DNA of 52,740 nt from Candidatus Poribacteria bacterium. Its GTDB lineage: Bacteria > Abyssobacteria > SURF-5. This document shows positions 33,303 to 52,490 of the stretch, one piece after another; within the stretch, counting starts at the first letter, position 1; the number at the start of each line of letters is the position of its first letter. The notes below the pieces were generated by a model, which did no database searches, was not told the DNA's origin, and worked only from the letters and a program-made list of their open reading frames with translations. The stretch is taken from the NCBI GenBank assembly GCA_016215705.1, contig JACRIR010000004.1:1-52740 (forward strand). Reading direction: 5' to 3'. A program made the translations under genes and the position numbers.

Positions 33303-33309
33303 GGTTGAA

Positions 33310-35395: not shown

Positions 35396-35707
35396 ATGGA
35401 AGGAAAGAACTCGAATCCGGCTGGCGTTAGGGAGGCTGTCACAAATACCGACCTATCACCTGCAGCGACGCCACAGCCTTCGGAGGCTCAGTCGCGCGTG
35501 CTGGCTCGTCTTCTCGGTATGGCCGATCGATATCGCTCTGAAGACGCTCTGTGCCAGGCCGCGGACATATGCTTTGACCTCATAGAAAACCATGAGCACT
35601 CTCCTGAGGCCGGGCGGGCGCGCGAGCATCTGATGGAAATAGCCGAGCACTACGAAAACGGCGGCCAGCGCCGTCTGGCGCGACACCTCTATGAAAGACT
35701 ACTGTGA
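35396..35707 (+). CDS. Small helical (TPR-like) protein of the gas vesicle operon
   Basis: This 103-residue protein has a disordered N-terminal third and a C-terminal part made of helices in a TPR-like arrangement (VLARLLGMADRYRSEDALCQAADICFDLIENH, then HLMEIAEHYENGGQRRLARHLYERLL). An excellent AAGGAGAGATCG site precedes the ATG. It lies in the 425-base gap between the ArsA-type ATPase and the second GvpA-family gene, whose ATG starts one base after its stop. I do not recognise a named family. It may be a scaffold for vesicle assembly. Confidence 0.65.
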   Translation: MEGKNSNPAGVREAVTNTDLSPAATPQPSEAQSRVLARLLGMADRYRSEDALCQAADICFDLIENHEHSPEAGRAREHLMEIAEHYENGGQRRLARHLYERLL

Positions 35708-35708
35708 A

Positions 35709-35972
35709 ATGGGCGGCGATAGTTCGCATGCGCGTCCTCCGCTCGATGAACGAGATCATATATCGCTGTGTGAGACGCTGGATCGCGTTCTCAATAAGGG
35801 GGTTGTCGTCGCCGGCGATATCGTGATATCGGTCGCGGACGTCGATCTCATATATCTCGGCCTTCGACTTGTTCTGAGTTCCGTCGAGACAGCAAGGCGC
35901 GTGGGCGCGATAGATGATGTGCGTGAGAGAAAGAGTGTGAAGCATGAATGCCTGCCAACGACCCAAAGCTGA
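35709..35972 (+). CDS. GvpA-family minor gas vesicle protein (GvpJ/M/S type)
   Basis: This protein of about 87 residues has the GvpA-type core (LCETLDRVLNKGVVVAGDIVISVADVDLIYLGLRLVLSSVETARRVG) with an extra N-terminal stretch and a basic C-terminal tail. It lacks the exact GvpA core, so it is one of the minor homologues (GvpJ, GvpM or GvpS) thought to act in nucleation or at the tips. The ATG at 35709 lies one base after the preceding stop. Its 3' end overlaps gvpK by 29 bases. Confidence 0.85.
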   Translation: MGGDSSHARPPLDERDHISLCETLDRVLNKGVVVAGDIVISVADVDLIYLGLRLVLSSVETARRVGAIDDVRERKSVKHECLPTTQS

Positions 35973-36291
35973 GTCCCACTCACTGAGTGATTTTGCCGCG
36001 GCCATGACGCCAGCCGCATCTTCGTCTCCGAGGCGCATCGCACTGAAAAAAGATGACGTCAAGAACGGCCTCGGACAACTGGTCCTGACTCTTGTCGAAT
36101 TAATTCGGGAACTCCTGGAACGCCAGGCGATTAGGCGCATGGAGGCGAACTCGCTGACTAACGATGAGATAGAAAGGCTCGGAACCACGTTCTCACAGTT
36201 GTCGGAACAGATGGAAGAACTGAAGAAAGAATTCGGTCTGAAAGACGAAGACCTTAATATCGATCTCGGTCCCTTGGGCAAACTTCTATAG
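35944..36291 (+). CDS. gvpK: Gas vesicle protein GvpK
   Basis: This 115-residue protein is GvpK: the conserved block LKKDDVKNGLGQLVLTLVELIRELLERQAIRRMEANSLTNDEIERLG is complete, and a C-terminal FGLKDEDLNIDLGPLGKLL follows. GvpK is an accessory protein of unknown exact role. The ATG at 35944 overlaps the end of the previous gene by 29 bases; a later ATG at 36004 is a possible alternative. It ends 12 bases before gvpJ. Confidence 0.93.
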   Translation: MNACQRPKAESHSLSDFAAAMTPAASSSPRRIALKKDDVKNGLGQLVLTLVELIRELLERQAIRRMEANSLTNDEIERLGTTFSQLSEQMEELKKEFGLKDEDLNIDLGPLGKLL

Positions 36292-36303
36292 AGGGAGACG
36301 GCT

Positions 36304-36633
36304 ATGGTTACTCAGCAAACCGCAGTACAACACGCCATGCAAAGCGATAGGCTTGCAGATATCCTGGAACGTGTTCTCGATAAGGGCATAGTGATTGCCG
36401 GAGATATAAGGATTAAGCTTGTTGATATCGAGTTGCTAACGATTCAGATTCGCCTCGTGATTGCCTCGGTGGACAAAGCCCGAGAAATGGGTATGGACTG
36501 GTGGACGACCAGTTCATATTTCAGTTCAAAAGCCAAGGAATCTGAACGAGAAAGCGAAATCACCCAGTTGAAAAAGCGAATTGAACAACTCGAGGAAAAA
36601 GCGCCCGCAACAAAGGATTCCCGCAACGCATAA
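36304..36633 (+). CDS. gvpJ: GvpA-family protein GvpJ
   Basis: This 109-residue protein has the GvpA-like core (LADILERVLDKGIVIAGDIRIKLVDIELLTIQIRLVIASVDKAREMGMDWW) followed by a charged coiled-coil tail (EREEITQLKKRIEQLEEK-like). The longer tail and the WW after the core are typical of GvpJ-type minor components. AGGGAGACGGCT precedes the ATG. It is the last gene of the gas vesicle operon; no clear terminator follows in the next 200 bases. Confidence 0.87.
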   Translation: MVTQQTAVQHAMQSDRLADILERVLDKGIVIAGDIRIKLVDIELLTIQIRLVIASVDKAREMGMDWWTTSSYFSSKAKESERESEITQLKKRIEQLEEKAPATKDSRNA

Positions 36634-37395: not shown

Positions 37396-40300
37396 TCAAT
37401 CGAATTTGACCGGTCCGGAAGCAAAAGGCGTAAACGTAACTTCGCCGAGTTGTGGATTTAGATGTCCGCCGGCAATTTCTCGCCGAATCGTATTCTCGTC
37501 GGTGGTGCCCCAATAGCATTCGGATGCGACAAAAGGCGATGCGGGTGCTTCGTTCCCGTTGTAGAGTTGAGTGCCGGAATTTCCATAAATATTGTTCCGC
37601 TCGAAGATCAGATATCCCACAACGAACACGCCTCCGTTATCTTCGTCCGAAAGACCGGTGTTTGCGCTCACTGTGTTCTGCGTGAAGACCTCGTTTTCGA
37701 TAGATGCTCCCCAGAAATTGATGTAGACGCCGCCGCCGAACCTGCTCAAAGCTTTGTTGGAGGACACACGGTTACGGGTCATGGCGCTGTTTCGTTCGGC
37801 GTAGACGCCGCCGCCGTGATTGGCCTCGTTATCATGCACCTTGTTGTTGTCGACGAGCCCGAACGTGGAATAGATGCCGCCACCGTCGCCATCGGCGCGG
37901 TTTGACTCCACGTCATTGCCGACGGCCGAGGACCGCGAGAGAAATACGCCGCCTCCATCACCATCCGCTTTGTTTCCGAAAATGTCGTTGCCTTCCACAC
38001 GGATGGTCGAGGTGTTCATGTATCCATATGCGAAAACGCCGCCACCGTCGCCGCCTGCCTTGTTGTGATGAATCTTGTTAGACGTTATGTGTATGATATC
38101 GTTTGTATATGCATAGACGCCGCCTCCGTTTGTGGCGGAAACGTTATCGTGAATATCGTTGCCTGTGATGACGGGACCGCCCTGACGGATTGCTAACCCG
38201 CTGCCCTCGTGATATGCAATTGTGGAGTCTTTTATCAGTGGCGACGCGGACTCTATAAGTATCCCCTTGCCTTTCTCTACAACGCATCTCTCGAGAATGC
38301 ATCCGTCAAGATAGTCTCCGCTGCTGTTAAACTGGACGTCCTGGCTCAAATCCGCAAATATTATCTTGCCCCATCTCGCATCTGAATCTGCCGTGAATGT
38401 TATAGGATTCGAGAGGGTCCCTTTTGCCGCCAGCTTGCCGCGCACCATCAAGTTCTTGCCGCCCGCAACGCGAACGTGGACGCCTGGCTCTATCTCGAGG
38501 GCGCCACCCGGCATGACAAGCACATTATCAACCATTACGTATGGGCTCAAGCTCTTCCGAAGCTTCAATGTAGTTGTTATCGGGCCGGCCAGCAGCGAGG
38601 GGCTGTCAGCGATAGTTGTGAAGCCGGTTGGTTTGCTCCACTGCGACCAACTGCCCCCGGTCTTGCGATATGCCACGCGCCAGAAATACGTTTGATTGGC
38701 GAGAAGGTCCAGACCGGCAAGATTGAAGTTCAGGAGTTTATCGCCTGTTAGCAGTACGTCGGCTGCAGGAGCAGTGAAATCGGCGGGGGATGTTGATATC
38801 TGCCACCGCGACGAGTCGATGGCGCCGATCATCTCAGGAGCGCCGGTCGCGGGAATGTTCGTCTGAGTACTCGCTGTCAGAACCGCATTTCGCGGCAGGG
38901 CCGTTTCTCCGTCGGACGGAGACACGTTTTGAGGCGGCGCGAGGGATTCATCTCTGCCGGTGAAACGTATTTTGAGTTCCTCGGAGAAGCCGGTTTCTAC
39001 GAGTCTGCTGTCAACGTGTTGATAGCCGGAGACCGCAAAGAAATACTCCTGTCCCTGCTTAAGGTCGCTTATCATGCATCGCTTATCGGGCCCAATTTGA
39101 ATCGCGGACTCGTAGGGATATCCGCTCCCGGTCCCTGCGTAAACCTTATGTCCCTCGAACAAGAGTCCCTGTGGCTCCTCCCATGAGAGTTCCACGCCTT
39201 CATTTTTTGCTGTGGCTATAACGTTCACAGGCGGAGGCGCGGGAGCAGTTGTCGCCAGACTGTCGAGGGAAGGCAGGCAACTGGCCAGGCCGACTTCGTC
39301 GTTATCGAGCCAGTCAAACGTCAGGTGGAGTATTGCTCGCTCCGCTGCTCCCCAATAATTACGCGCTGCCATCACGTAAGGGGCCTCGGCTACGTTCGCG
39401 ACGCGGAGCCCAAATCCCCGATTGTTCAAGAGGTTGTTTTCGTGGATATCCGGGTTGCCGGACACATAGACGCCTCCGCATGCGTTCTCGCCGTTCGCTT
39501 TGTTTCCGGCAAACGAGTTTTGGTGAATTTTGCCGGAGCCGAAATAGTAAAGTCCTCCGCCTTCAGGATTCAGCGCAATGTTTCCTATCACGCTGTTTGA
39601 GACGATTTCGGCGTTCTCGGCGTACGCGCCGCCACCTTGTCCGGCGGTGTTGGACTGTATAAGGTTTTCACGCACGAGGGAATCTACGGCATAAACGCCG
39701 CCGCCCTTCTCGGCTGCCGTATTCCCAATGACAGTATTCCGGAGAATCTGCGTTTCATAGGCGTACATGCCCCCGCCAAAGCGGTCACTGGTATTCCCGT
39801 ATATTACATTGTCCCTTACGATAATATGGCCGCCCTCATAAGCGTAGGCGTAAATGCCGCCGCCGCCATGTCGTCCGCCTTCAGATATGTTGTTGTTGAT
39901 CGTGTTGTCCGCTATGAGGACGTTCCTGTCGGTGTATGCGATTATGCCGCCTCCGTTGCCCGAGGCGAAGTCTTCCCTTGTCGAGTTTCCGTGAATGTGG
40001 TTTCCGACAATGCGCGGCGCGCCGAATTCGATTCGGATACCGCTCGAAACGTTGTCCCGGATATCGCATTGCGTGATGAAAGGCGCCCCGAACCGTATGA
40101 AAATACCTTGCCCCTTCTCGACGACGCAGTTCCGCATGATGCAGCCGCTGATGAAGTCTCCACTCTCTGAGAAGAGGGCGTCATCGCTGAAGTCCGTGAA
40201 ATGAATAGTTCCCCACGGTTTGTTGGTTTGAGCCGTAAAGATTATCGGCTTTTCGGGCGTACCAACCGCTGTCAGCTTGCCTCTCAACTCGATCGTCTTC

Positions 40301-40560
40301 TCCGGCCCCAGTTCTATTCTGACGCCCGGTTGAATTTGGAGCGTCGCGCCTTCCTCGAGGCGGATGTTGTTTTTCACGATATACGGGCTTTGCTTTGCCC
40401 GCCACACGGCATTCCCCGAGATGTTGCGATCAATTGTGGTCGCTGCCTGCGAGAGTGAGGGACCACTCGCCACAATTGCAGACAACACAACCACGCCGAG
40501 CAGCTTTCGAATGCAGGATGTCATCATCATATACCCCCCCATTTGCATATTCCGGTTCAT
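37396..40560 (-). CDS. Large secreted parallel beta-helix protein with internal duplication
   Basis: This 1,054-residue protein has a signal peptide (RKLLGVVVLSAIVASGPSLSQA) and two right-handed parallel beta-helix regions, about residues 45-430 and 655-1,050, built from repeats such as GGGVYAYTN, GGGIYAYAYEGG and NRADGDGGG. Both copies begin alike: SPYIVKNNIRLEEGATLQIQPG and SPYVMVDNVLVMPGGALEIEPG. A fibronectin-III-like domain and a second beta domain lie between them. Such proteins bind or cleave polysaccharides or act as surface structures; no catalytic motif is visible. The start is three bases after the octaheme cytochrome stop, with GGAG before the ATG, so they are coupled. Confidence 0.83.
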   Translation of the reverse strand: MNRNMQMGGYMMMTSCIRKLLGVVVLSAIVASGPSLSQAATTIDRNISGNAVWRAKQSPYIVKNNIRLEEGATLQIQPGVRIELGPEKTIELRGKLTAVGTPEKPIIFTAQTNKPWGTIHFTDFSDDALFSESGDFISGCIMRNCVVEKGQGIFIRFGAPFITQCDIRDNVSSGIRIEFGAPRIVGNHIHGNSTREDFASGNGGGIIAYTDRNVLIADNTINNNISEGGRHGGGGIYAYAYEGGHIIVRDNVIYGNTSDRFGGGMYAYETQILRNTVIGNTAAEKGGGVYAVDSLVRENLIQSNTAGQGGGAYAENAEIVSNSVIGNIALNPEGGGLYYFGSGKIHQNSFAGNKANGENACGGVYVSGNPDIHENNLLNNRGFGLRVANVAEAPYVMAARNYWGAAERAILHLTFDWLDNDEVGLASCLPSLDSLATTAPAPPPVNVIATAKNEGVELSWEEPQGLLFEGHKVYAGTGSGYPYESAIQIGPDKRCMISDLKQGQEYFFAVSGYQHVDSRLVETGFSEELKIRFTGRDESLAPPQNVSPSDGETALPRNAVLTASTQTNIPATGAPEMIGAIDSSRWQISTSPADFTAPAADVLLTGDKLLNFNLAGLDLLANQTYFWRVAYRKTGGSWSQWSKPTGFTTIADSPSLLAGPITTTLKLRKSLSPYVMVDNVLVMPGGALEIEPGVHVRVAGGKNLMVRGKLAAKGTLSNPITFTADSDARWGKIIFADLSQDVQFNSSGDYLDGCILERCVVEKGKGILIESASPLIKDSTIAYHEGSGLAIRQGGPVITGNDIHDNVSATNGGGVYAYTNDIIHITSNKIHHNKAGGDGGGVFAYGYMNTSTIRVEGNDIFGNKADGDGGGVFLSRSSAVGNDVESNRADGDGGGIYSTFGLVDNNKVHDNEANHGGGVYAERNSAMTRNRVSSNKALSRFGGGVYINFWGASIENEVFTQNTVSANTGLSDEDNGGVFVVGYLIFERNNIYGNSGTQLYNGNEAPASPFVASECYWGTTDENTIRREIAGGHLNPQLGEVTFTPFASGPVKFD

Positions 40561-40563
40561 CTC

Positions 40564-42780
40564 CTAGTACTCCTCCATCTGAGTCCAATCCACTTCCGGG
40601 CCTTTCGGCTTCTTCTCTTCCTCAGTTATAGGCGTGGGCACTTTGTCCATGATCATGAGGTACTTTGAGACCAGGTCGATCCACATCTCCGGGTCCGATA
40701 CTCTAGGCGCGCCGTCCGGAGTGTAGTATACGTAAGGCATTTTTGTGCCTGCGCCCGCGTATTTGTCCGGATTCCGCAGGAAATTCTTTATCCATTCGAA
40801 TCGCAGCCTGTTCTTGGAAAGCATGAGGTTTATGGACAGGTCTTCGAGCTTGACGTCCGCCGGCAGACCGCCTTCCACCGAGATGGGATGACATTGCATA
40901 CATTTGTCGGAACGCACTTTGTATTCTCCCATGTCGATGTCAAGTTTCGGCATTTCCTCTCGCTGGGGAAGGAGCACGTACGGCGCACGCGCAACCTGGG
41001 GCGAAGTCGCCGTAATCGAGAAATAGTCAATCAGGCTCTGGGCTTGCTCGTACGAGAATGAGAAAGTGGGCATCCTCATCTTGAGCCATGGCCTCATTGG
41101 GACAGGCTTGCTCAGATACTGAAACGCCCATTGCGGCTGCACTTTGTCGCCCTCGCCCACGAGACGCGGCGGCACATACGTCTTCAGGCCGATGAACTGG
41201 TCGATGCGCGGCTTCACATTTTCCTCGAACATGTGGCAGCCGCGGCAGTTACTCTCCGTGATAATCCTGTCCCCGGCCAGCGCCGCTCGCTGGCCCGGTG
41301 TGGCTGCAAACATATACTTTTCCGGCAGAGGGAACGCGCGATTGGAGAGATAGAAAGTTGTCAGGCTTTCCATCTCCTCTTTCTCGAATTGGTACTGAGG
41401 CATCTTGAGCGGCATGTCTTTGGTTTCATAGATTTTCGGATTCTTGATCTTGTTGTATATCCAGTCCCATTTTGTTCTCTCAACCTTCGAGTCACCGAAC
41501 GGGAGTTCGTCGAGCGTCTTCTTGGCGACCTCGGCAACCTCGACGCCGGGCATCGGCGCCTTATCAAGCGACTTGATTCTGTGACATCCGTAGCAGCCGA
41601 ACAACTGCACCAGTTTTTCGCCGTTCTGTATTGAAGCTCCCTTGGTTGTCAGCTTCTCGACGCTCACGATGTCGCGGCTCGCCTTGAGAGACATGAGGTA
41701 AACCGTAAGATTCTTCCTGTCCGTCTCCGTGATATCCAGTCTTGGCATCGGTGTCTCGGGATTGTATGCCTTCGGGTCCTTGAGGTACTCGAATAGCCAA
41801 TTGGCGTTCAGCTTAACGCCTGCGTCGGAAAGGTTCGGAACACGGCGGGCGAGAGAAGCCTCGTCCTTGCTTGTCGAATGGCACGCCTTGCACCCAAGTT
41901 CCGTGAAGAGGCGCTCTCCTTCGGTCTTTGACGCCGAAGCGAGATCGACCTTCGGGTAGGCGCTCTCCGATTTCAGCGAGAGTACAAAAGCGGTCAAATC
42001 TCTCATCTCATCATCGGTAAGTTTGAACGCAGGCATAACGGTGTTCGGCCGAACCTTCTCAGGTGTTCGCAGCCAGCTTAGCATCCATCGTTCATTCGCA
42101 AGCTTGTCTTTCAACCCCTCGAAAGTCGGCGCGAACTTTTGAAGTTTCTCGAATCCCCGGGCGCTGTGACAGGAATAGCAGCCGTACTTTGAAAACGCGA
42201 GACGACCCGCCTCAACTTTTTCCGCGCCTTTGAGTCCATGCGGGGTCTCGTGGCAGCCGATGCATGTAGCTTGCAGGTATTCCTTCGGAATGAGCGGGTT
42301 GAACCAGGTGTCCTGTCGTCCGTGGGCAGCGCGAGTTGATGTGCCTACTCCTTGTCCGCTATGACAGATGGTACAGCCGAACTTCTCCACGCGGTGCTGG
42401 TTCAAATATTCTCCCGGGTGTGTCCTGAACGGTTCGGGCGCGTCAGCAAACAGAGGGTTGTCGATTCCAAGGTGACAAGTTGTGCAAAGGTCTCTGATAT
42501 TGGCTTCAGGCAGGAATACCTGGCGCAGACGTAGGGGCGTCGATGCTACCTCGCGAAGCTGTTTTTCCCACTCTTCTTTGCTGGAAGGGTTGGTTCTTTC
42601 GATAGGGTTTTTGATTTTCGCCTGTAACCTGCTTTCATGGATTCTCTGGAATTTGCGCTGGTATTCGATCCATTCCTTCCGGGTCTCATCCTGGAACACG
42701 CGATAGCTCAACGCCGCGAATACAATCATCGCTGCCGAGAATAACAGACGATGGCTCATTTTTGCTCTGATTCCGCTCAT
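40564..42780 (-). CDS. Octaheme c-type cytochrome, membrane-anchored
   Basis: This 738-residue protein has a single N-terminal membrane helix that should anchor it, then a large periplasmic part with eight CxxCH heme c motifs, at C99, C136, C173, C201, C297, C396, C512 and C627. Between the motifs lie repeated segments like MPRLDITETDRKNLTVYLMSLK, typical of cytochrome c class I-like folds in bc-complex-associated cytochromes. It follows the cytochrome b genes, so it probably takes electrons from the Rieske/cytochrome b complex. The ATG at 42780 has only a weak ribosome site. Confidence 0.9.
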   Translation of the reverse strand: MSGIRAKMSHRLLFSAAMIVFAALSYRVFQDETRKEWIEYQRKFQRIHESRLQAKIKNPIERTNPSSKEEWEKQLREVASTPLRLRQVFLPEANIRDLCTTCHLGIDNPLFADAPEPFRTHPGEYLNQHRVEKFGCTICHSGQGVGTSTRAAHGRQDTWFNPLIPKEYLQATCIGCHETPHGLKGAEKVEAGRLAFSKYGCYSCHSARGFEKLQKFAPTFEGLKDKLANERWMLSWLRTPEKVRPNTVMPAFKLTDDEMRDLTAFVLSLKSESAYPKVDLASASKTEGERLFTELGCKACHSTSKDEASLARRVPNLSDAGVKLNANWLFEYLKDPKAYNPETPMPRLDITETDRKNLTVYLMSLKASRDIVSVEKLTTKGASIQNGEKLVQLFGCYGCHRIKSLDKAPMPGVEVAEVAKKTLDELPFGDSKVERTKWDWIYNKIKNPKIYETKDMPLKMPQYQFEKEEMESLTTFYLSNRAFPLPEKYMFAATPGQRAALAGDRIITESNCRGCHMFEENVKPRIDQFIGLKTYVPPRLVGEGDKVQPQWAFQYLSKPVPMRPWLKMRMPTFSFSYEQAQSLIDYFSITATSPQVARAPYVLLPQREEMPKLDIDMGEYKVRSDKCMQCHPISVEGGLPADVKLEDLSINLMLSKNRLRFEWIKNFLRNPDKYAGAGTKMPYVYYTPDGAPRVSDPEMWIDLVSKYLMIMDKVPTPITEEEKKPKGPEVDWTQMEEY

Positions 42781-42793
42781 ATTTGTCTTCTGC

Positions 42794-43513
42794 TCAGATG
42801 TTGAACCAGGGCGTCACCAATATGTATCTGACATTGAACGCCAGCCTGAGGATGATTTTCACAACGACGCCGTACATCAGAAGCACGAGCGTCACGGCAG
42901 CCACATACCGCGCGACGCCCATCTTTTGGAGGAATTTTCTGTAGAGGAGTTTGGGCAACGTCAGACCGAGCCCGAAATACAGGGCGAGCAGACCCATTCC
43001 TGACCATTGCGACATGTTCACCAGTGTTTCCTCGGCGCTCTTGGCGACGGACCAATCTTCCCATGGCCAGTAAAACTGCCAATTGGGGCCGCGCAAGAAT
43101 TGTCCAACCAGAATCAGAATTATCCACATGGAGAAACCGAAGATGAAGCTGGAAGCTGCCGCCTTCCGCCCGCGCAGGCGATAGGTTCCAACTCCGGATT
43201 TGCTCACGTCGAGATAGGGGATAAGCATAAGTCCGAGGATAATCAAGGTGGGGACGGTCACACCGGCGATCCATGGATCGAAATACACAAGCAACTCCTG
43301 GAGTCCGACGAAATACCACGGCGCCTTTGCCGGGTTTTCGGTTTTGTTCGCGTCTGCTATGCTGCGCAGCGGCGCATTCACAGTCATCGACCATAGGAGC
43401 AATCCGATGGAGGCAACAATCACGGCGATGGCCTCTTTGATCACAAGGTCAGGCAATACGAACGCATATTCGTCCCGATACACGTCATCGAGCTTCTTCT
43501 CTTCTATTCCCAT
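42794..43513 (-). CDS. Cytochrome b C-terminal half (subunit IV-like)
   Basis: This 239-residue membrane protein corresponds to the C-terminal half of cytochrome b (subunit IV of b6f). It has three or four hydrophobic helices and the segment ENPAKAPWYFVGLQELLVYFDPWIAGV, where APWY replaces the classical PEWY Qo-site motif. This variant is common in bacterial split cytochromes b. The ATG at 43513 follows AAGGA. It lies 92 bases after the b6-like gene, with the octaheme cytochrome 13 bases further on. Confidence 0.87.
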   Translation of the reverse strand: MGIEEKKLDDVYRDEYAFVLPDLVIKEAIAVIVASIGLLLWSMTVNAPLRSIADANKTENPAKAPWYFVGLQELLVYFDPWIAGVTVPTLIILGLMLIPYLDVSKSGVGTYRLRGRKAAASSFIFGFSMWIILILVGQFLRGPNWQFYWPWEDWSVAKSAEETLVNMSQWSGMGLLALYFGLGLTLPKLLYRKFLQKMGVARYVAAVTLVLLMYGVVVKIILRLAFNVRYILVTPWFNI

Positions 43514-43585
43514 CTCCACATCCTTGGAATACGTCAATACTCGCTAATCTGTGCCCTTCGCAAATGATGAATGAGAGAATTCATC

Positions 43586-43607
43586 ATTCCGCATTCATCG
43601 TAAACCT
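43586..43607. repeat. Short spacer repeat ATTCCGCATTCATC
   Basis: ATTCCGCATTCATC at 43586-43599 is identical to 52261-52274. It lies in a spacer rich in TTCATCATT between the two halves of cytochrome b. It is best read as part of the genome's degenerate intergenic repeats. Confidence 0.4.
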
Positions 43608-44373
43608 AAAGCGGGTGCGAAATCCCGCCGTCTTTTCTTATCCGCCAGAAATGAACCAACATAAGAACGGTCGCCGCCAGTGGCAGGAAGATGCAGTGGA
43701 GCACGTAGAATCGGAGAAGAGCGTTTTCCCCCACGGCGGTGTCGCCAAGTAGCAAGTAGCGAACGTCGTTGTCGGGCCGGATGCCGAGCACGGAATGGAA
43801 AGGTCCGTCTGCTCCCAGGAACGGAGTTGCGCCTCCCATTCTTGTGCCGACCGTGATGGCCCAGAACGAAAGCTGGTCCCACGGCAGAAGATAGCCGGTG
43901 AAACTGAGCAGTAACGTCAGCACTAGGAGGACTACTCCCACCACCCAGTTGAATTCCCTCGGCGGCTTGTACGAACCCGTCAGGAAAACGCGAAGCATGT
44001 GCATCATCACCAGAATCACCATCGCATGGGCGGCCCAACGGTGCAGGTTGCGCATAACCACTCCAAACTTCACCGAGTGCTCGAGCAGCCTCATATCGAG
44101 GTACGCATATTCCACCGTCGGGCGATAATAGAACATGAGAAGTACGCCGGTCACTACCTCCACGATGAACATATAAAACGTGAGCCCGCCCAGGCAGAAG
44201 GTATGCGTGATCCTTAAGCCGGTCCTGTGGACCTTGGGCGGATGAACGTGAAGGAAAAAGTTGGAGACTACCGTCAGAACCCTGTTGCGGGACGTGTCGC
44301 TAAACCGGTGTCGGAATATGGACCGCCATATCTGACTCTTTGTGACTTTTTCTGAAATCCTGTTCATCGTCAT
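43606..44373 (-). CDS. Cytochrome b N-terminal half (b6-like)
   Basis: This protein of about 255 residues is the heme-binding half of cytochrome b. Two histidine pairs bind the hemes: [16 protein letters not shown] (13 residues between) and [17 protein letters not shown] (14 residues between). The longer second spacing is that of b6f-type rather than mitochondrial-type proteins. Four hydrophobic helices are visible. The ATG at 44373 is a plausible start with no strong ribosome site; longer frames overlap the chaperone gene. It belongs to the same unit as the Rieske and octaheme genes. Confidence 0.92.
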
Positions 44374-44390
44374 ATCAAAGACATTAAGCG

Positions 44391-45098
44391 CTATTTCCCC
44401 GGATATAGCCCCCTGAGATACGCCATGTCCGCCGTGCAAAAATTTGCCGACAAACCAACGAGGGAGCAATAAAACGAAACGGCCGGCTCGCAAAGGTTAG
44501 GAATGTTCGCCTTGAAAACAGCCTCCGTCTTCTTGTGAAGTTGAGGCAGCCACTTCGCCGGGTGTCGTGAGAGAAAATCTATTTCGGCTGCGCAATAAGG
44601 CGCCGGGTCTTCTCCACGCTGGAGCGCAAGCACCTCTTTGAACGCCAGATAATGCATGAACTCAAGCTCGGTTGTTATGTGATCGGGCACTTCTCTTTCC
44701 CGCGCTTCGGCCACGCTGAGACCGAAATGGTTGTAGAAGCGCACAAGCTCTTCCATGTTTCCCATACGGTCGGCCGCGTACTTTCCCTCGATCAGGGGAC
44801 AGGGAGGGCCACCGGGCCCTCCTTCAAAAACCCTGACGAACTCGGCCTCAAAATCGTCCTGTGAGACGCCCTTGAGCAGTTGTCCGGAAAGGGCGCCCTC
44901 TTCTATCCGGACCTCAAACGGAATCTCGCGCAACACCGCCAGGGCCGACTTGAGGACGTCGCCGTCCCTGGCCATTTTGAGGAACTCCTCGTCGGGATAA
45001 CGGAATGATTCCGCCAGAAACCGGTACGTCTGGCTCCGGCGGGCTCGCGCCATCTGCTCCGGACCTTCTATTTGGCCTAATTCGGCGAATGGTTTCAT
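44391..45098 (-). CDS. TorD/DmsD-like molybdoenzyme maturation chaperone
   Basis: This protein of about 235 residues is an all-helical chaperone of the TorD/DmsD/NarJ group. It has [39 protein letters not shown] (the E..y..lF.gP..PC.p.es motif region) and [16 protein letters not shown]. These proteins bind the Tat signal of their Mo enzyme and help insert the cofactor. Its start, at 45098, is eight bases before the end of the beta subunit gene, with GAGG as ribosome site; upstream extensions read as nonsense. Its position in the operon makes it the dedicated chaperone of the alpha subunit. Confidence 0.88.
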
Positions 45099-45105
45099 GC
45101 TTGCC

Positions 45106-46245
45106 TCAAACCGCTGTTTCCGGGTCTTTGTCAAACGGCCCGAACATTTTCTTCCATCGTTTCGCCATGAGTATCTCCATGAGTTCCGATTTCTCTCCAT
45201 CGCGCGCCCGCTCCATCTCCTGCTGCAACAGTTTGAAAGACTGCTCGACCTCGGGGCCGAACAAGTCAACCATGTATTTCAGAGGGATGCGCGGCTTCGA
45301 GAGGTCCACTTTGCCGGTCTCGTCCAGTCGCGGCGGCGCAAGCGGCGGAACATAGAACACGTTGGGCTCTGTTCCGAATTTCGGGAAGAGCGGCAGAGCG
45401 ACTTTCCATTTCTTCACGAGTTGATATACCGGTCCCTGTTCGTTGTCGACGTAATCCACGAATCTCACGCGGCCGGTACACTGCCGCGCACATGCGTTCG
45501 GGACGCCTTTCTCTATTCTTGGATAGCAGAAGATGCATTTCTGGCTCGTGAGCTTCTCGAAGTTGAAATAGATTTTCTTATATGGGCACGATTCCAGACA
45601 AAACCTGTATCCCTTGCACCGGTTCTGGTCTATCAGCACGATTCCGTCTTCCTCGCGCTTGTAGATCGCGTGTCTCGGGCAAGCATCGAGACACGGCGGG
45701 TAGGTGCAGTGGTTGCATATTCTGGGAAGATAGAAGAAGAAGCTGTTGGGATACTTGATGCCAACGGCGCCCTGGTCCTCATCCCAATTCATTGACCACT
45801 CGGGCGCTGTTCCGTCCGGGTTCGTCGCCTTGAGCACGGACGTGCCGAACTTGCTGTTTATCACTTCCTCATGATTGAACTTCCAGAAGTCGCCGAACTC
45901 CTTGCGGGTCGGCAAATTCCCTCGAATCGGCTCGCGAACCTTGCCCTCGAACAACACTTTGTATCCGCCGCCGCTCTTCTCGAAGTCTTTGGGCGTTCCT
46001 TTGCCGGGCATGGTGTTGACCGTGTTCCACCACATATATTCGCGGCCTTCCTTTTTGGTCCACGTGTTCTTGCACGCCATGCTGCACAGTTGGCATCCAA
46101 TGCACTTGTTGAGGTCCAGGACCATTGCAAGTTGCCGCTTCGTCTTGCGCAGTTCATCTTTTATGGCGACCGTCTGTTGCGCAAGTTCCTCTTGTCTCTT
46201 CTTTTCTTCCGGCGATAATTGCTTGTTTGCTTCGACTTCTGCCAT
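45106..46245 (-). CDS. Iron-sulfur beta subunit of type II DMSO reductase family enzyme
   Basis: This 379-residue protein resembles NarH, EbdB and related beta subunits. It has four iron-sulfur motifs: CIGCQLCSMACKN, CNHCTYPPCLDACP, CKGYRFCLESCPYKKIYFN and CIFCYPRIEKGVPNACARQC. The third has Tyr where the second Cys would be, so that cluster should be [3Fe-4S], as in NarH where Trp stands there. The other three should be [4Fe-4S]. It has no signal peptide and would be exported with the Tat-targeted alpha subunit. AGGAGACAAAG precedes the ATG. Confidence 0.92.
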   Translation of the reverse strand: MAEVEANKQLSPEEKKRQEELAQQTVAIKDELRKTKRQLAMVLDLNKCIGCQLCSMACKNTWTKKEGREYMWWNTVNTMPGKGTPKDFEKSGGGYKVLFEGKVREPIRGNLPTRKEFGDFWKFNHEEVINSKFGTSVLKATNPDGTAPEWSMNWDEDQGAVGIKYPNSFFFYLPRICNHCTYPPCLDACPRHAIYKREEDGIVLIDQNRCKGYRFCLESCPYKKIYFNFEKLTSQKCIFCYPRIEKGVPNACARQCTGRVRFVDYVDNEQGPVYQLVKKWKVALPLFPKFGTEPNVFYVPPLAPPRLDETGKVDLSKPRIPLKYMVDLFGPEVEQSFKLLQQEMERARDGEKSELMEILMAKRWKKMFGPFDKDPETAV

Positions 46246-46318
46246 GAGCTTTGTCTCCTACATTAGTACTGCTGAGTTCCCCCAAGGAATCTGTCCCGCA
46301 AATCGCCAAGCGGCTCAA

Positions 46319-46338
46319 TGCGCCTTTGTAAGGGCGCA
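46319..46338. repeat. Short hairpin between gamma and beta subunit genes
   Basis: TGCGCC and GGCGCA arms flank an 8-base loop in the 150-base gap between the gamma and beta subunit genes. It has no T-run. It may influence the relative amounts of the two subunits or simply be a spacer palindrome. Confidence 0.4.
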
Positions 46339-46395
46339 ACATGCTGCGCTTCTGCAAATGGAATCATGATGATCGGACACATTCCGCTGATTTCC

Positions 46396-47076
46396 TCACG
46401 CTAACACCAGGTCGCGCCATTCTTTTGAGAACGCCTTGACACCGCCGCGCTCGCCTGCGGCTCCCTCCCACGCTGCAATACCAAGAGGCTTCTTGCCTCC
46501 GGCAGCGAGCTTGACGGCGTCTTCCTCGACCTGGAGGGCACGCCCCATTACTACCTTCCATTCGTTATCTTTCCATTCCGAGTTCGCAAAAACGGAGCTT
46601 TTCTCGGTGTACAGACTTGTCGAGAGCCCCTGCGTGACCTGGTTCTTCGGCTTGTTGTCGAAGTCGGCTCTCCAGTACCATGCGTTGGTCGGAGCGTCTT
46701 CTTTCCCCATTTCCTTTATCGGAGTGTCAATGCCTTCTTTCATGGGAAACAGCAGCGCCACTGCGTCGGGGAATATGTTCAGGTCGCCGATTGAGGTGCT
46801 TCTCTCTTTGGGTGTCCATTTGATGTAGAAGAACACCTCTTTGCCGTTGTGAAGGCACTTCATGCTGACCTTCGTTATCTTGCCGATTTCCTTTTCGTCG
46901 CGGGTTGCCTTGATGTAGGGTGACGGCTGGTTCGCCAAAGGAGTCGCCGCCATCTCGAGCACGTATTCCTTCGCGCCCGCCCAAGCGGGAGAATCAAGTT
47001 TGAGCAGTTCTTCCTTCGAGGCCGCAACCTTGTTTGCCACGAGCTGTTCCACGGTTGTCACTGTGTTCTCAGCCAT
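46396..47076 (-). CDS. Heme b-binding gamma subunit of the Mo enzyme (EbdC-like)
   Basis: This 226-residue protein resembles the gamma subunit of ethylbenzene dehydrogenase and of chlorate, selenate and dimethylsulfide dehydrogenases, which binds one heme b through Met and Lys. Family features include LDSPAWAGAKEYVLEMAATPL, FPDAVALLFPM, TNAWYWRADFD and AGERGGVKAFSKEW, where Lys is the likely second heme ligand. In place of the expected Met in the -FP segment I see Leu, with a Met three residues on. No signal peptide is visible. It lies 33 bases after the alpha subunit gene, an order (alpha-gamma-beta) that differs from the usual alpha-beta-gamma. Confidence 0.83.
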   Translation of the reverse strand: MAENTVTTVEQLVANKVAASKEELLKLDSPAWAGAKEYVLEMAATPLANQPSPYIKATRDEKEIGKITKVSMKCLHNGKEVFFYIKWTPKERSTSIGDLNIFPDAVALLFPMKEGIDTPIKEMGKEDAPTNAWYWRADFDNKPKNQVTQGLSTSLYTEKSSVFANSEWKDNEWKVVMGRALQVEEDAVKLAAGGKKPLGIAAWEGAAGERGGVKAFSKEWRDLVLA

Positions 47077-47109
47077 GAGTCAATAACCCCCTTATCGTTT
47101 GCTCCAACC

Positions 47110-50019
47110 CTATGCCTTTTCGACCTCGACCGACACGGCCCGGTCAATAGGTTGGATGCACCAATTCCAGCGGTAGTAGTTCAAGTGGCCGTAACCGGCT
47201 GCCAGGTCAAGCCACTTTATCATGCCGGGAATAGCCGTGTCGTAACTCTTCCAGCCCTCGAACTGGTACGGCTCCCATGCGTGATATATGATGATCTGTC
47301 CCGGACGGGTTTCATCCTGCGAGCGCGCGGCCGCCGTCAACTTCACGTGAATCTTGAAGTCGTCAAAGTCGTTGTGCACCCGCACGAGGTCGCCTTCCTT
47401 GATGCCCCGTTTCTCGGCGTCCTCCGGATTCATGAACATGAACGGACGGCCTTGATGCGTCCGCGCGAGCACGTCATCGGTGATCCAGATGGAGTGGACA
47501 CTCCATCTCTGATGCCCGCTCGTCATCAGCAACGGATAGTTGCCTCCCATCTTCGGGTTGTCCTTGTGGACCGGGAAACCCTCGCCTGCCTCAAGGAACC
47601 AGTCATGATCGATATAGAAACTGATTCTCCGGTTGTACGTGGGGTACGGTATCTTCTTGGCCGTATGATATGTCAGAGGCACAATCGGCTCATCCGGCTT
47701 GATGTCGGTCGCAAGATGCTTCCCGATGATGTCTATCTTCGAGATATTGGTGAACCGGATTATGCCTTCCTTGCGAAGGTCTTTAATAGTCGTGCCCTCC
47801 GGCAGCGTGCCCAATTGGGCGCTAAGTTGGAGCGCGTCATCGAGGGTGTCATCGGCATTGGTGCGGTTCAGCGTCTGATGCTTTACCAATACCGAGAGGT
47901 CGATCTCCGTTTCGTTGCGGCCCGTGTACTTCATGAATTTCCGCTCTTCGCCGAGTTTTTTCATTCTCTCGGCTAGCCGCCTGAACACTTCCCACTCATC
48001 CAGCGCTTCGGCGGGTGGAGGAACAGCCTGTTCGGTAAGCGTCACCCACGGGACGTGCGGAGTCGGGAATCGCGTGTCGGTCTTTTCATAGAAGCCGGCG
48101 CCGGGCAAGACCATGTCGGCCATCAGAGCCGTTGTGCTCCACCGGGTTTCAACTGTGAATATGAACTTGTACTTTTTCCACAACTCGGGATAGATGTTCT
48201 TCCACCAGCCGCGATTCTTGCGGGCCGGGCTCGTTCCTAAGAAGCAGTAGACCTGCGGATTCTGGTCCCGGGCCGGCCGCACATACGGTTTCCACCACCC
48301 CTTTTCGTCGACAGCTTCGTTCATATATTCCGCAAAGGTGCGTTTCATTGTGGGACAATGCCATGCCTTGTTTTCCCATGTCTGCTTATAGTTGGAATGA
48401 TAATAGTAGAGGAAAGCCGGAGGCACCATGCCCATTCGCTTCTTGTTGGCTTCCCGCTCGAGCTCTCTCTGCACGATTTCGTCGGTTATTTCCGGATCGG
48501 CCTCTCGCATGTCTTTTGCGTCTCCTCTCATGCTCAAGACCTGACGAACCGTTGCGAGTCCCTCTCTTTCGCGGATCATGAGGGCAGTCGCGCCGTCAAA
48601 CAACGATTCGTTCCAGCCGCGAATGCCGCTGCCCTTGTTGCCCACGCTGCCGGTAAGAGCGAGCAGCAGGCACATCGTGCGCTCCATTAGGTCGCCGTGA
48701 TAATACTTGGCCGAGTTCCAGCCCACGAGAACCTGCACGTGGCCGCGCGCCTTCCACGCCCGGTGTGCGAGGCGAACGATGGTTTCGGGGTGAACGCCGC
48801 AAATCTTCGACGCCTTCTCAGGCGTGTAATCACGGTTGATCATTTCCTTGAAAATATCAAACCCGGGTCTGACCTCGACTTGCTGCCCATTTTTTAGAGT
48901 GACCGTGAATTTACCCTCGAGCGCAGGATCACACGGCAGCGTCAATGTGCCGCGCGGAGCTTTGACGGGGGCGTTTGTCGCCGTGTCCCAGAAATACATC
49001 TGGTCTTCTCTTCCTGCGCCCGTCATATCGGGCTCGCGCAGGAACTTCTTTGTGTCGCTTCTGATGAGTAGCGGGAAATCCGTCTGTTCTTTTACGAACG
49101 CTTTGTCGTATGTGTCCTCCGCAATGAGGACCTGGCCCACGCCGAGGCCCAAAGCCGCGTCACCGCCGGTCTCTATCGGAATCCACTCGTCTGCATGAAC
49201 CGCCGATGGGGAAAAATCGGGCGCTATCGTCACTACCTCTGCGCCGTTGTATCGCGCAGCCGAGATGAAGTGACAGTCAGGAATCCGGGTATATATCGGA
49301 TTCATGTGCCAGATGAGAATAAGCTTCCCGAAGAACCAGCCGTCCACCGAATCGCAGAACTGGAATTTGCCGAAGGTCTCGTACACGCCCTTATTGAAGT
49401 CGCCGATAGTCGAGTTGACATCGAGTTCGGTTGCGCCGATACCGCTGAAGAAGCGGAAGCCGGCCATGAGGTGAATCCAGCCGCCGTTGCCCGGGCCGGG
49501 CTCAAAGATGACAGTCTCCGGACCCTCCGTCTGGATCGCGTCCATCAAGTGGGCGCAGACTTCATCAATTGCCTCGTCCCACGTGATTCTCTTCCATTTC
49601 CCTTCGCCGCGTTCGCCGACCCGCTTCATCGGATACTTCACGCGGTCGGGGTTATACATCATATTCGAGTAGGAGCAGCCTTTCTGGCAGCCGCGCGGAT
49701 TCCAGTCGGGGCTGCCCGGGTCAATGATAGGATATTTACCCGCCTGCTCTTCGCGCCAGACAACGCCGTCCTTCGTATACACTCGCCATAGGCAGTTGCC
49801 GGGATAACAGTCCACGAGATGTGTGCCATACGTGACCTTGTCCCATTTCCACTCATCTCTGTGCAGACTTTCCCATCCCTTGTACTCCCACTTCTGGAAC
49901 ACTTTCTCCGTCGCCTGCGCTGTGCCCCCCAGAAAACCCAGCGAGTCGAGCGAAAGCGCCAGCGTGGTTACTCCGGTAACCTTCAGAAACTGACGCCTTG
50001 TGAACCTGAAATCTGTCAT
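47110..50019 (-). CDS. Tat-exported molybdopterin alpha subunit, type II DMSO reductase family
   Basis: This 969-residue protein carries a Tat signal (FTRRQFLKVTGVTTLALSLDSLGFL) and so works in the periplasm. The N-terminal iron-sulfur motif is H-x3-C-x4-C (THLVDCYPGNCLW) followed by NPRGCQKGCSYS; His as first ligand marks the type II (NarG/EbdA/ClrA/SerA) branch. The IGDFNKG segment near residue 215 probably supplies the Asp ligand to Mo. Length matches EbdA, ClrA and SerA, about 900-980 residues. AAGGAGGTTGCT precedes the ATG at 50019. Candidate roles are hydrocarbon hydroxylation or oxyanion reduction. Confidence 0.92.
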   Translation of the reverse strand: MTDFRFTRRQFLKVTGVTTLALSLDSLGFLGGTAQATEKVFQKWEYKGWESLHRDEWKWDKVTYGTHLVDCYPGNCLWRVYTKDGVVWREEQAGKYPIIDPGSPDWNPRGCQKGCSYSNMMYNPDRVKYPMKRVGERGEGKWKRITWDEAIDEVCAHLMDAIQTEGPETVIFEPGPGNGGWIHLMAGFRFFSGIGATELDVNSTIGDFNKGVYETFGKFQFCDSVDGWFFGKLILIWHMNPIYTRIPDCHFISAARYNGAEVVTIAPDFSPSAVHADEWIPIETGGDAALGLGVGQVLIAEDTYDKAFVKEQTDFPLLIRSDTKKFLREPDMTGAGREDQMYFWDTATNAPVKAPRGTLTLPCDPALEGKFTVTLKNGQQVEVRPGFDIFKEMINRDYTPEKASKICGVHPETIVRLAHRAWKARGHVQVLVGWNSAKYYHGDLMERTMCLLLALTGSVGNKGSGIRGWNESLFDGATALMIREREGLATVRQVLSMRGDAKDMREADPEITDEIVQRELEREANKKRMGMVPPAFLYYYHSNYKQTWENKAWHCPTMKRTFAEYMNEAVDEKGWWKPYVRPARDQNPQVYCFLGTSPARKNRGWWKNIYPELWKKYKFIFTVETRWSTTALMADMVLPGAGFYEKTDTRFPTPHVPWVTLTEQAVPPPAEALDEWEVFRRLAERMKKLGEERKFMKYTGRNETEIDLSVLVKHQTLNRTNADDTLDDALQLSAQLGTLPEGTTIKDLRKEGIIRFTNISKIDIIGKHLATDIKPDEPIVPLTYHTAKKIPYPTYNRRISFYIDHDWFLEAGEGFPVHKDNPKMGGNYPLLMTSGHQRWSVHSIWITDDVLARTHQGRPFMFMNPEDAEKRGIKEGDLVRVHNDFDDFKIHVKLTAAARSQDETRPGQIIIYHAWEPYQFEGWKSYDTAIPGMIKWLDLAAGYGHLNYYRWNWCIQPIDRAVSVEVEKA

Positions 50020-50039
50020 AGCAACCTCCTTGCCCATAG

Positions 50040-50230
50040 TTTACAGTTTACAGTCTACAGTCCACGGTCATAACTCGAAACCGTAAACCATTCACTATTC
50101 ACCACGAACCACTCACCATGAACCATGAACCAATACTCCCCTTTCGCCTTCTTCTTGAGAGCGAAGCGAAGAATCTCTTCTTCTTTCCCCTTTCGCCTTG
50201 CTCCTTGCTCCCTTCGCCTTCTTCTTAGAG
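50040..50230. repeat. Degenerate repeat-rich spacer between Mo enzyme and dehydrogenase
   Basis: This spacer is made of loose tandem motifs: GTTTACAGTTTACAGTCTACAGTC near 50,040, then CATGAACCATGAACC near 50,120, and GAGCGAAGCGAAGAATC near 50,160. The last resembles GAGCGAAGCGAAAAATC near 52,230. The mix suggests repeat elements typical of intergenic regions in this genome. No promoter or terminator is clear, so the genes on either side may be separate units. Confidence 0.5.
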
Positions 50231-50231
50231 T

Positions 50232-51308
50232 TTATGGTTTGAGCGCAATCTTAATCACATTATCAAGCTTCTTATCGAACATCTCATACCCCCTCACGGC
50301 TTCTGCCAGGGGCATTGTGTGCGTGATGAGCGGTGTCATATCCAACAAGCCTGCCTCGATTATCCTCAAAAGCCGCGCCATGTGGATCACGTTCACAAGG
50401 CCCATCGTTATGCCGATGTTCTTGACGCAGAGCTGCGACATGAGGAGTTCCTGTGGTTCTTCAAACACGCCTACAATTGAAACGTTGCCGCCCGGTTTGA
50501 CTGCCTGAAAACAAGCGTCGAACGTCGGCTTTATGCCGACCGCTTCTATTGCCACGTCCGCGCCGCTGCGATTTGAGAATTCCTCGAGGAGACTGGTGGG
50601 CGCGCCGCCGGTAAGTTCCTTTATCTCGTTGACCGCGTCGGTTTTCGTGGGATCGATTGTGTGCGTTGCCCCGAGCTTCCTGGCTATCTCCAGCCGGTGC
50701 GGTATAGGATCGACCACGATCACTTTTGAGGGGCTGAAGAGTCTTGCGCACGCCGTCGCGCAGAGGCCCACCGGCCCCGCCCCGAAAACCGCTACGGCGT
50801 CGCCAGGCGCAAGCTTTCCGTTTGTCACGGCGAAGTATCCGGTTGATAGAATATCGCCCACGAACAGCGCCTGTGCGTCCGTCAAACCGGCAGGTATCTT
50901 GTGCATGGCGATCTGAGCAAACGGCACGCGCACAAAATCTGCCTGCGCGCCGGCAAGATTCCCCAGCAGGGGGCCGCATCCGAAGACGCCGCTGCGAACG
51001 CATTTGGGCAGAATCCCCTTCAGGCACATCTCGCATTTGCCGCATTGTACGGTGCACGCAACCGCGACCCGGTCTCCCACCTTGAACCCGTCAACATTGG
51101 AGCCGAGTTCCTCAATAACTCCGACGAATTCATGGCCGAGTACGTCTCCCGGCATCATCGGCGCCGCTCCATGAATCATGTGGATGTCGGTTCCGCAGAT
51201 GCTTGTGAGCGTCACTTTGATGATCGCGTCGTCCGGGCTTTGCATCGTGGGACGGGGAACATCCGCTAGCGCTACCTTGTTGATCTCCTGAAAGACTATC
51301 GCTTTCAT
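50232..51308 (-). CDS. Zinc-dependent alcohol dehydrogenase (MDR family)
   Basis: This 358-residue enzyme has catalytic zinc ligands C38 (SICGTD) and H59-E60 (LGHEF), four structural-zinc cysteines C89, C92, C95 and C103, and the GAGPVGLCA nucleotide-binding motif. It resembles NAD-dependent secondary alcohol or sorbitol/threonine dehydrogenases. GAGGGGTGAAA precedes the ATG at 51308, immediately after the ferredoxin stop, so the two are coupled. If the Mo enzyme is a hydroxylase, this dehydrogenase could oxidise the alcohol it makes; that link is an inference from position. Confidence 0.9.
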   Translation of the reverse strand: MKAIVFQEINKVALADVPRPTMQSPDDAIIKVTLTSICGTDIHMIHGAAPMMPGDVLGHEFVGVIEELGSNVDGFKVGDRVAVACTVQCGKCEMCLKGILPKCVRSGVFGCGPLLGNLAGAQADFVRVPFAQIAMHKIPAGLTDAQALFVGDILSTGYFAVTNGKLAPGDAVAVFGAGPVGLCATACARLFSPSKVIVVDPIPHRLEIARKLGATHTIDPTKTDAVNEIKELTGGAPTSLLEEFSNRSGADVAIEAVGIKPTFDACFQAVKPGGNVSIVGVFEEPQELLMSQLCVKNIGITMGLVNVIHMARLLRIIEAGLLDMTPLITHTMPLAEAVRGYEMFDKKLDNVIKIALKP

Positions 51309-51310
51309 TT

Positions 51311-51577
51311 TCACCCCTCACCGTTTTCTGAAGGAACCATTCTGATCGCGTTCCACGGACAGCCTTCGATTCGTGCGCCAAGATATCCTCTGGTGACACA
51401 ACTTCGACATCCCATGCATCTTTCGGTGTTCACCTGCATTCGCCTGAAATGAAAACTGCTCTCGTCGGAAACGTACTCGAGCGCTCCCTCGGTCGGGCAG
51501 AACAATTTGCAGACGGGTGTCCCCGCACACCCCGTGCAGCTTTCATCTACAAACGCAACAAATCTCTTCTTGGCCAC
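51311..51577 (-). CDS. Ferredoxin-like protein with expanded cysteine motifs
   Basis: This 88-residue protein has eight cysteines in two clusters but with unusual spacing: C-x2-C-x5-C-x3-C-P (C14, C17, C23, C27; CTGCAGTPVCKLFCP) and C-x2-C-x2-C-x12-C-P (CMGCRSC to EGCPW). Normal 2[4Fe-4S] ferredoxins have C-x2-C-x2-C-x3-C-P for both. Both clusters should still be possible. It lies between the Rieske protein and the alcohol dehydrogenase and may carry electrons between that dehydrogenase or the bc complex and other partners. Confidence 0.8.
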   Translation of the reverse strand: MAKKRFVAFVDESCTGCAGTPVCKLFCPTEGALEYVSDESSFHFRRMQVNTERCMGCRSCVTRGYLGARIEGCPWNAIRMVPSENGEG

Positions 51578-51606
51578 TTCTTCTCACTCACCGGACGCTT
51601 TACTCT

Positions 51607-51640
51607 TCGACCTCAAACCTTCGACCTTCGACCTTAGACC
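51607..51640. repeat. Degenerate ACCTTCG tandem repeat
   Basis: The bases CGACCTCAAACCTTCGACC and the following TTCGACCTTAGACC form loose tandem copies of a 7-base unit, (A)CCTTCG. The tract lies in the 57-base gap between the Rieske and ferredoxin genes and reaches the Rieske stop codon. It is another example of the short degenerate tandem repeats found in spacers of this window. Confidence 0.5.
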
Positions 51641-52200
51641 TTTATATAAGCCTTCTGCTTTTCGAACTCCTTGATATCGTATACGACACTCGTGTCAACC
51701 ACCAGGTTGCCTCGCGCATTCATGTATATCTTGAGCCTGTCCAGGGGCCGGGGCGCAGGCCCGGCGAAATTGACCCCATTCGAGTAGAACTGGCTCCCGT
51801 GACACGGACATTTGAATATCCGCAGCCCCGGAAACCAATTGACTGTGCACCCGAGATGCGTGCAACGGGCAAAGATCGCGTAGATGCGGCTGGTCTCTCG
51901 TATAACAAAGAAACGTTGCTCGCTTTTCCATTTGGATTCGACGTAGACGACTCCGCAGGTATCAGGATCAGCGCATATCAAGAAGTCGGCGACCATTCCG
52001 ATTTCGAAAGTGCTTGGCGGATGGAAAACCACAGAGGGCGAGAAAAAGCGAACTGTCTCCACTGCGCCGACGCCCGTCAATCCGAAAAGCGTTCCCCATC
52101 CGACTACCGAAAGGCTCTTCTGGAACATTTCTCGGCGTGTTATTCCGGGAGGAAGCGATTCGCTGCCCTGTTCGTTTATGGCCGGCCCCGTCTCCGACAT
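51634..52200 (-). CDS. Rieske [2Fe-2S] protein of a bc/b6f-type complex
   Basis: This protein of about 188 residues has a Tat-like head (RREMFQKSLSVVGWG), one membrane helix and a Rieske domain with CTHLGC and CPCHGS, the two Cys-His pairs that hold the [2Fe-2S] cluster. It ends in the KIYMNARGNLVVD segment typical of the family. With the two cytochrome b halves and the octaheme cytochrome it makes a full quinol:cytochrome c complex. GAGAGGAA precedes the ATG. A gap of about 290 bases separates it from the partial gene upstream. Confidence 0.92.
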   Translation of the reverse strand: MSETGPAINEQGSESLPPGITRREMFQKSLSVVGWGTLFGLTGVGAVETVRFFSPSVVFHPPSTFEIGMVADFLICADPDTCGVVYVESKWKSEQRFFVIRETSRIYAIFARCTHLGCTVNWFPGLRIFKCPCHGSQFYSNGVNFAGPAPRPLDRLKIYMNARGNLVVDTSVVYDIKEFEKQKAYIKV

Positions 52201-52490
52201 GTTCTTCCTCTCAGGATGCATTCATTGCGAGCGAAGCGAAAAATCCCCTCACTCTTCACTATTCCGCATTCATCATTGAGCAAGGGTCCGTCTCCGCCAT
52301 CTTCCCTCCACTCAATCTCTGGTTTCCTGCGCAACCTCACTGCCCTGTCAATCCGCTGCAACCCCTTTTCTTCTCTCCGAAATTCGCGTAATTCGTGTTC
52401 CCAATCTCTTCTCTTTCTTCTTACTTTTTCTTTTCTTCTTCTTTGTCCCTAATCCGTGTAAATCCGTGGTTGCATGCTTCTTCTTTTTCT
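52201..52490. other. Pyrimidine-rich non-coding spacer
   Basis: No gene is seen. The middle is strongly pyrimidine-biased on the plus strand (CTCTTCTCTTTCTTCTTAC and neighbours near 52,405-52,445), with another T/C run at 52,478-52,495. It contains AATTCGCGTA/ATTCGTGTTC (52381-52400) and AATCCGTGTA/AATCCGTGGT (52451-52470), 10-bp tandem units like those at 351-380, plus GAGCGAAGCGAA near 52,230. I cannot find a promoter of clear quality for the Rieske operon here. Confidence 0.55.

Follow-up and report, generated by a model that had tools for sequence, protein, structure and literature searches.

The window, a stretch of 52,740 nucleotides that makes up the entire contig C267 of genome G000 (Candidatus Poribacteria bacterium, SURF-5 lineage), contains ten uninterrupted genes on the minus strand, from 52221 down to 37396. 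They encode a Rieske protein, an alcohol dehydrogenase (ADH), the alpha, gamma, and beta subunits of a molybdenum (Mo) enzyme, an assembly chaperone, a cytochrome b split into two parts, an octaheme c-type cytochrome, and a beta-helix protein (Table 1). Judging by sequence comparison, the locus is most likely an ahy-type operon with alkane C2 hydroxylation as its putative activity. We give a probability of about 0.6 to the reading that this anaerobic C-H hydroxylase feeds a dedicated, probably reversed, Rieske/cytochrome b (bc) complex for sulfate reduction. An earlier reading of the same DNA (the original prediction) had joined a periplasmic Mo enzyme to such a complex, either for a new oxyanion respiration or for anaerobic hydroxylation; every gene that it named was found, intact and on the minus strand, at the coordinates given in Table 1.

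According to the type II DMSO-reductase model TIGR03479, alpha scores 907.7 bits, slightly below the cut-off of 984.75, and the NCBIfam models for ethylbenzene dehydrogenase also remain under their thresholds (804 of 2000 bits for EbdA, 448.9 of 740 for EbdB, and 133 of 400 for EbdC). Among solved structures, the best relatives are those of ethylbenzene dehydrogenase, with 2IVF_A matched by alpha (766 bits) and 2IVF_C by gamma. The phylogenetic comparison suggested in the original prediction was carried out with EbdA, ClrA, NarG, and an NxrA-like alpha, SerA and DdhA being absent from the tree (72 rows, quick search, long outgroup branches, support by the Shimodaira-Hasegawa-like approximate likelihood ratio test, SH-aLRT, only). 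It places alpha within a 20-row AhyA-type clade with SH-aLRT support of 100. The clade consists exclusively of sequences from the window's phylum, represented here by three genomes (G000, G001, and G002), from genomes of the phylum and order of the Desulfobacterota-labelled loci L027, L028, and L029, and of locus L164 from G515, which we take to be Desulfococcus oleovorans Hxd3 and hence call Hxd3-like. Chloroflexi alphas (48-50% identity) are sister to this clade with support of 80. EbdA lies inside the same larger group, which excludes ClrA, PcrA, haloarchaeal Nar, NarG, and the NxrA-like alpha.

As for the active-site residues, the EbdA Mo ligand D223 is universal in the aligned alphas, and K450 is retained in all hydroxylase-like rows, its position being occupied by Asp, His, or Gln in haloarchaeal Nar, NarG, PcrA, and the NxrA-like alpha. 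Since ClrA carries this lysine too, K450 was rejected as a sole hydroxylase marker. In the AhyA clade H192 has mostly given way to Pro, and one paralogue has a gap at this position. The same pattern at the three positions is found in ahyA sequences, and the nearest relatives of environmental ahyA, reference sequences aside, belong to SURF_5, Abyssubacteria (PMC7803848); AhyA matches in the Abyssubacteria phylum have been reported as well (PMC8767102). Proteomics of Hxd3 links the AhyABC-type enzyme to growth on alkanes, the activity being putative even there (PMC3653055). The matches to 2IVF, placement in the AhyA clade, and retention of D223 and K450 thus support the hydroxylation branch of the original prediction. 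Alpha and the Rieske protein carry twin-arginine motifs; as no signal was seen in beta or gamma, these two are likely exported in complex with alpha.

The link to the bc complex was assessed with a core set of Rieske, alpha, gamma, beta, chaperone, both cytochrome b parts, and octaheme (ADH excluded). This set is complete in 12 genomes (G000, G001, G060, G062, G515, G567, G466, G753, G687, G470, G580, and G551) spanning at least 2 phyla, and the loci of G138 and G002 are interrupted by contig ends. Among the 78 loci of the genome scan, Rieske, both cytochrome b parts, and octaheme are found at L027 and L029 only; L028 is too short to judge, though in its genome (G061) a different contig carries cytochrome b and octaheme. 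The order of the genes varies, the Rieske gene of L029 sitting between chaperone and cytochrome b. The Rieske profile matches every searched Ahy-operon locus whose contig covers the Rieske position, and has no match in 23 non-Ahy EbdA-like loci with long flanks (≥22 kb). In one Desulfobacterota order, that of G060, AhyA occurs in 10 of 389 genomes, and full-length octaheme matches, of at least 666 bits, fall in exactly the same 10, with all other matches at 473 bits or less; these are counts among related genomes rather than independent events. Conserved gene content and this co-occurrence uphold the genetic joining of the two modules, and a chance neighbourhood was rejected on the same two grounds. 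The word "new" in the original prediction was too strong, as the Hxd3-like ahy locus is laid out alike and haloarchaeal nitrate reductases also stand beside Rieske/cytochrome b genes. G000 has two further Rieske/cytochrome b systems, which makes the complex of this operon look dedicated. Most Ahy loci that extend far enough have a beta-helix homologue following the octaheme gene. A second, more distant octaheme homologue (354-473 bits) was also seen in three AhyA-bearing genomes (G551 C3:41053-42909, G687 C5:67060-68916, and G470 C143:68197-69732).

Cofactor motifs agree with a complex of the bc/b6f type. All 13 aligned Rieske proteins of Ahy operons contain CTHLGC (CTHLGCM in one) and CPCHGS, and the aligned cytochrome b has four heme b His ligands at b6 spacing as well as the Cys expected for heme ci. 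The quinol-oxidation (Qo) site motif reads APWY (AAWY in L029) instead of PEWY, a variable feature that does not by itself exclude bc/b6f membership. PEWY is present in the third bc complex of G000 and PDWF in haloarchaeal complexes, and a correlation of the second motif residue with redox potential and quinone type has been described (PMC9162462). Eight CxxCH motifs are found in 14 of 14 Ahy-type octaheme homologues, for which no relative in the PDB was detected by sequence.

According to the proposed mechanism, a periplasmic AhyABC-like molybdoenzyme would hydroxylate an unactivated C-H bond, most likely at alkane C2, using water. The two electrons would pass from Mo through Fe-S clusters to the gamma heme b, and further through the membrane-anchored octaheme c to the dedicated Rieske/b6-type cytochrome b complex. 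With sulfate as acceptor this complex would run in reverse, spending proton-motive force on lifting electrons onto menaquinone, and Qmo/Apr and Dsr would then take them from menaquinol. In the window's phylum, a cytoplasmic ADH may convert the secondary alcohol into a ketone. Such a role, already proposed in the original prediction, is plausible, but ADH stands outside the conserved core; G000 and G001 are the only genomes where it was found in the operon (the G002 contig ends before the ADH position). Running in reverse, a bc complex can push electrons uphill, as in some chemolithotrophs. The heme b of ethylbenzene dehydrogenase has a potential of +256 mV, with cytochrome c as the probable acceptor (PMC8840923), vs −78 mV for menaquinone (PMC9162462); if the Ahy heme is similar, the transfer would be uphill by ~0.33 V, or ~64 kJ per two electrons. 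A wider claim is put forward tentatively, at slightly worse than even odds. It holds that sulfate reducers of different phyla share, within their hydrocarbon-activation operons, a dedicated Rieske/b6-type complex that is specialised for reverse flow, has a changed Qo motif, and drives anaerobic C-H hydroxylation as a menaquinone reductase powered by proton-motive force.

Sulfate-reduction markers are present in all three genomes of the window's phylum, with aprA and DsrO above cut-off in each; qmoC adjoins aprA in G000, and sat is confirmed beside aprA in G001. Each genome has two contigs that end in the first 18-42 codons of dsrA (L179 and L180 on C112 and C12 of G000, L181 and L182 in G001, L183 and L184 in G002), one of the two being the contig with adjoining apr/qmo genes. 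Owing to these truncated starts, dsrAB is probably present in two places and lost in assembly; a published account reports no dsrAB in Abyssubacteria (PMC6121073). No haem-copper oxidase (PF00115) was found above cut-off in the five genomes searched, including G000, G001, G515, and G062. In its AhyA and sat/apr genes the window's phylum is similar to Ca. Abyssubacteria, but the quinol-dependent nitric oxide reductase (qNOR) reported for SURF genomes had no match in this PF00115 search.

Several points weigh against sulfate-linked reverse electron flow from a hydroxylase. Its weakest step is the proposed direction of flow, and the related module in the NarG/NxrA-like operon of the same genome could likewise run either way. 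The Ahy potentials could be below those of ethylbenzene dehydrogenase, and Ahy cytochrome b has Ala instead of the PEWY glutamate. The full body of dsrAB is missing from the assembly, and operon-bearing G062 has neither aprA nor dsrA above cut-off and thus probably uses an acceptor other than sulfate. AlphaFold models of the octaheme protein (3 sequences) had a predicted local distance difference test (pLDDT) value of 32 and were not used. In addition, three further alpha genes of G000 (78-79% identity) stand apart from any beta or gamma gene.

These stand-alone alphas belong to a larger group of AhyA-type loci without beta and gamma (L009, L011, L013, L106, L107, and L173), some of them near genes for AMP-binding enzymes, MFE-2-type hydratases, or 2-hydroxyacyl-CoA dehydratase-like proteins. 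One of them, at 10911-13811 of L013 (G000 C77), has a single in-frame TGA where relatives have Gly, and is either a pseudogene or affected by a sequencing error.

The oxyanion branch of the original prediction, with menaquinol electrons passing forward through Rieske/cytochrome b, octaheme, and gamma to an alpha that reduces selenate, chlorate, or nitrate, could draw on the similar layout of haloarchaeal nar-type operons, which combine Rieske, cytochrome b, alpha, beta, EbdC-like gamma, and chaperone genes (PMC8301774). The lysine shared with ClrA would also fit and is not decisive on its own. Alpha phylogeny, however, puts the window enzyme in the hydroxylase clade, apart from ClrA, PcrA, NarG, and haloarchaeal Nar, and on this basis an oxyanion reductase was rejected as the leading interpretation. 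Four similar alphas in one genome, three of them lacking beta and gamma, suit an enzyme with a substrate range, and the Hxd3 proteomics ties it to alkane growth (PMC3653055), which makes oxyanion respiration very improbable.

It is also unlikely that the same hydroxylase passes its electrons to another periplasmic acceptor and that the bc complex works forward, from menaquinol to octaheme and a separate sink. All ordinary b6-type quinol oxidase residues except the PEWY glutamate are there, and G062, which lacks sulfate-reduction markers, fits such a scheme; in contrast, neither a haem-copper oxidase above cut-off (G000, G001, G515, and G062) nor, within the operon, a gene for any other high-potential acceptor was found. 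As for the substrate, EbdA-like enzymes act on steroids, terpenes, and alkylbenzenes, multi-alpha loci occur in Sterolibacterium-type bacteria, and an AMP-binding protein and an MFE-2-type hydratase are encoded near stand-alone alphas in G001. The same coupling could therefore serve a non-alkane compound; we consider this a minor possibility, since among studied relatives the closest is the Hxd3 enzyme, with n-alkanes as its proposed substrates, and AhyA annotation is published for a related phylum (PMC8767102, PMC7803848). Hydroxylation of an alkane with reverse flow through the dedicated complex thus remains the preferred interpretation.

Intergenic distances are 325 bp between Rieske and ADH and 194 bp between ADH and alpha, followed by 33, 150, 7, 17, 92, 13, and 3 bp in gene order from alpha to the beta-helix gene. 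Promoter-like and terminator-like sites in the operon occur at chance level, so a single transcript is neither established nor ruled out. Upstream of Rieske stands a MerR-type regulator gene, truncated at the contig end; MerR homologues are present in six other Ahy loci searched, and L105 gives a MerR Pfam match. Elsewhere in the window, at 33229-36633, a double ArsA ATPase gene precedes genes for gas vesicles (two Gas_vesicle and one GvpK), which are unusual in a possibly subsurface bacterium.

Table 1. Genes of the ahy-type operon and the adjacent regulator fragment in the window.
Feature	Position	Strand	Supporting matches
MerR-type regulator, C-terminal fragment truncated at contig end	52512..52739	-	60.5% identity/76 aa to G001 MerR upstream of Rieske
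Rieske [2Fe-2S] protein, twin-Arg N-terminal anchor	51634..52221	-	PF00355; CTHLGC and CPCHGS motifs
Zn-dependent medium-chain dehydrogenase/reductase (MDR) ADH, signal peptide not seen	50232..51308	-	PF08240, PF00107
Alpha: type II DMSO-reductase family Mo catalytic subunit, AhyA type, twin-arginine (Tat) signal	47110..50037	-	TIGR03479, 2IVF_A, tree
Gamma: heme b subunit, EbdC-like, signal peptide not seen	46396..47076	-	PF09459, NF042980, TIGR03477, 2IVF_C
Beta: Fe-S subunit	45106..46245	-	TIGR03478, 487.3 bits, above cut-off
TorD-like assembly chaperone	44391..45098	-	PF02613; TIGR03482, 143 bits, slightly below cut-off
Cytochrome b N-terminal (b6-like) part	43606..44373	-	PF00033; alignment: four His ligands, heme ci-type Cys
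Cytochrome b C-terminal (subunit IV-like) part	42794..43513	-	PF00032; alignment: APWY instead of PEWY
Octaheme c-type cytochrome, hydrophobic N-terminal anchor	40564..42780	-	8 CxxCH
Secreted right-handed beta-helix protein, adjoining octaheme gene	37396..40560	-	PF13229

The AhyA enzyme type and its presence in such a phylum are already published. For the coupled bc complex, no account was found in the literature searched, and a prior mention is possible. Likewise, that literature was found to offer no explanation of how sulfate reducers such as Hxd3 can employ this type of enzyme, given that its relatives release electrons at about +250 mV, well above the menaquinone and sulfate couples. 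The bc complex encoded next to the hydroxylase, conserved and inherited together with it, offers a concrete and testable answer to this problem of high-potential electron disposal, also for a further phylum of uncultured bacteria that carries sulfate-reduction genes.

In comparison with known systems, EbdABC of Aromatoleum aromaticum (2IVF) has in common with the window enzyme the subunit plan, the heme b gamma, D223, and K450. The window alpha, however, is ~41% identical and does not retain H192, and we know of no Rieske/cytochrome b operon for EbdABC. Haloarchaeal Nar-type operons, for example on a Haloferax larsenii plasmid, resemble the window in having Rieske/cytochrome b genes beside a type II Mo enzyme with an EbdC-like gamma and a chaperone, but their alpha belongs to another clade with Asp at the K450 position, their cytochrome b is a single chain with PDWF, and an octaheme protein is not annotated there. 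The NarG/NxrA-like operon of G000 itself (L015, contig C229, 4822-17504) also combines Rieske, cytochrome b, multiheme c, alpha, beta, gamma, and chaperone genes; it differs in a distantly related alpha of 1158 aa, a fused cytochrome b, a GltD-like gene upstream, and 9-10 CxxCH motifs in the multiheme open reading frames. Operons of this type are kept in all three genomes of the phylum (L015, L126, and L127). The Hxd3-like ahy locus of G515 (AhyABC, a putative alkane C2-methylene hydroxylase) has the same core set and the beta-helix gene, and its alpha, from the same clade, is 60% identical to that of the window. It differs in a small 4Fe-4S protein encoded between Rieske and alpha and in having no ADH there, whereas the window locus has the ADH, is without the small ferredoxin, and lies in a genome with three additional stand-alone alphas.

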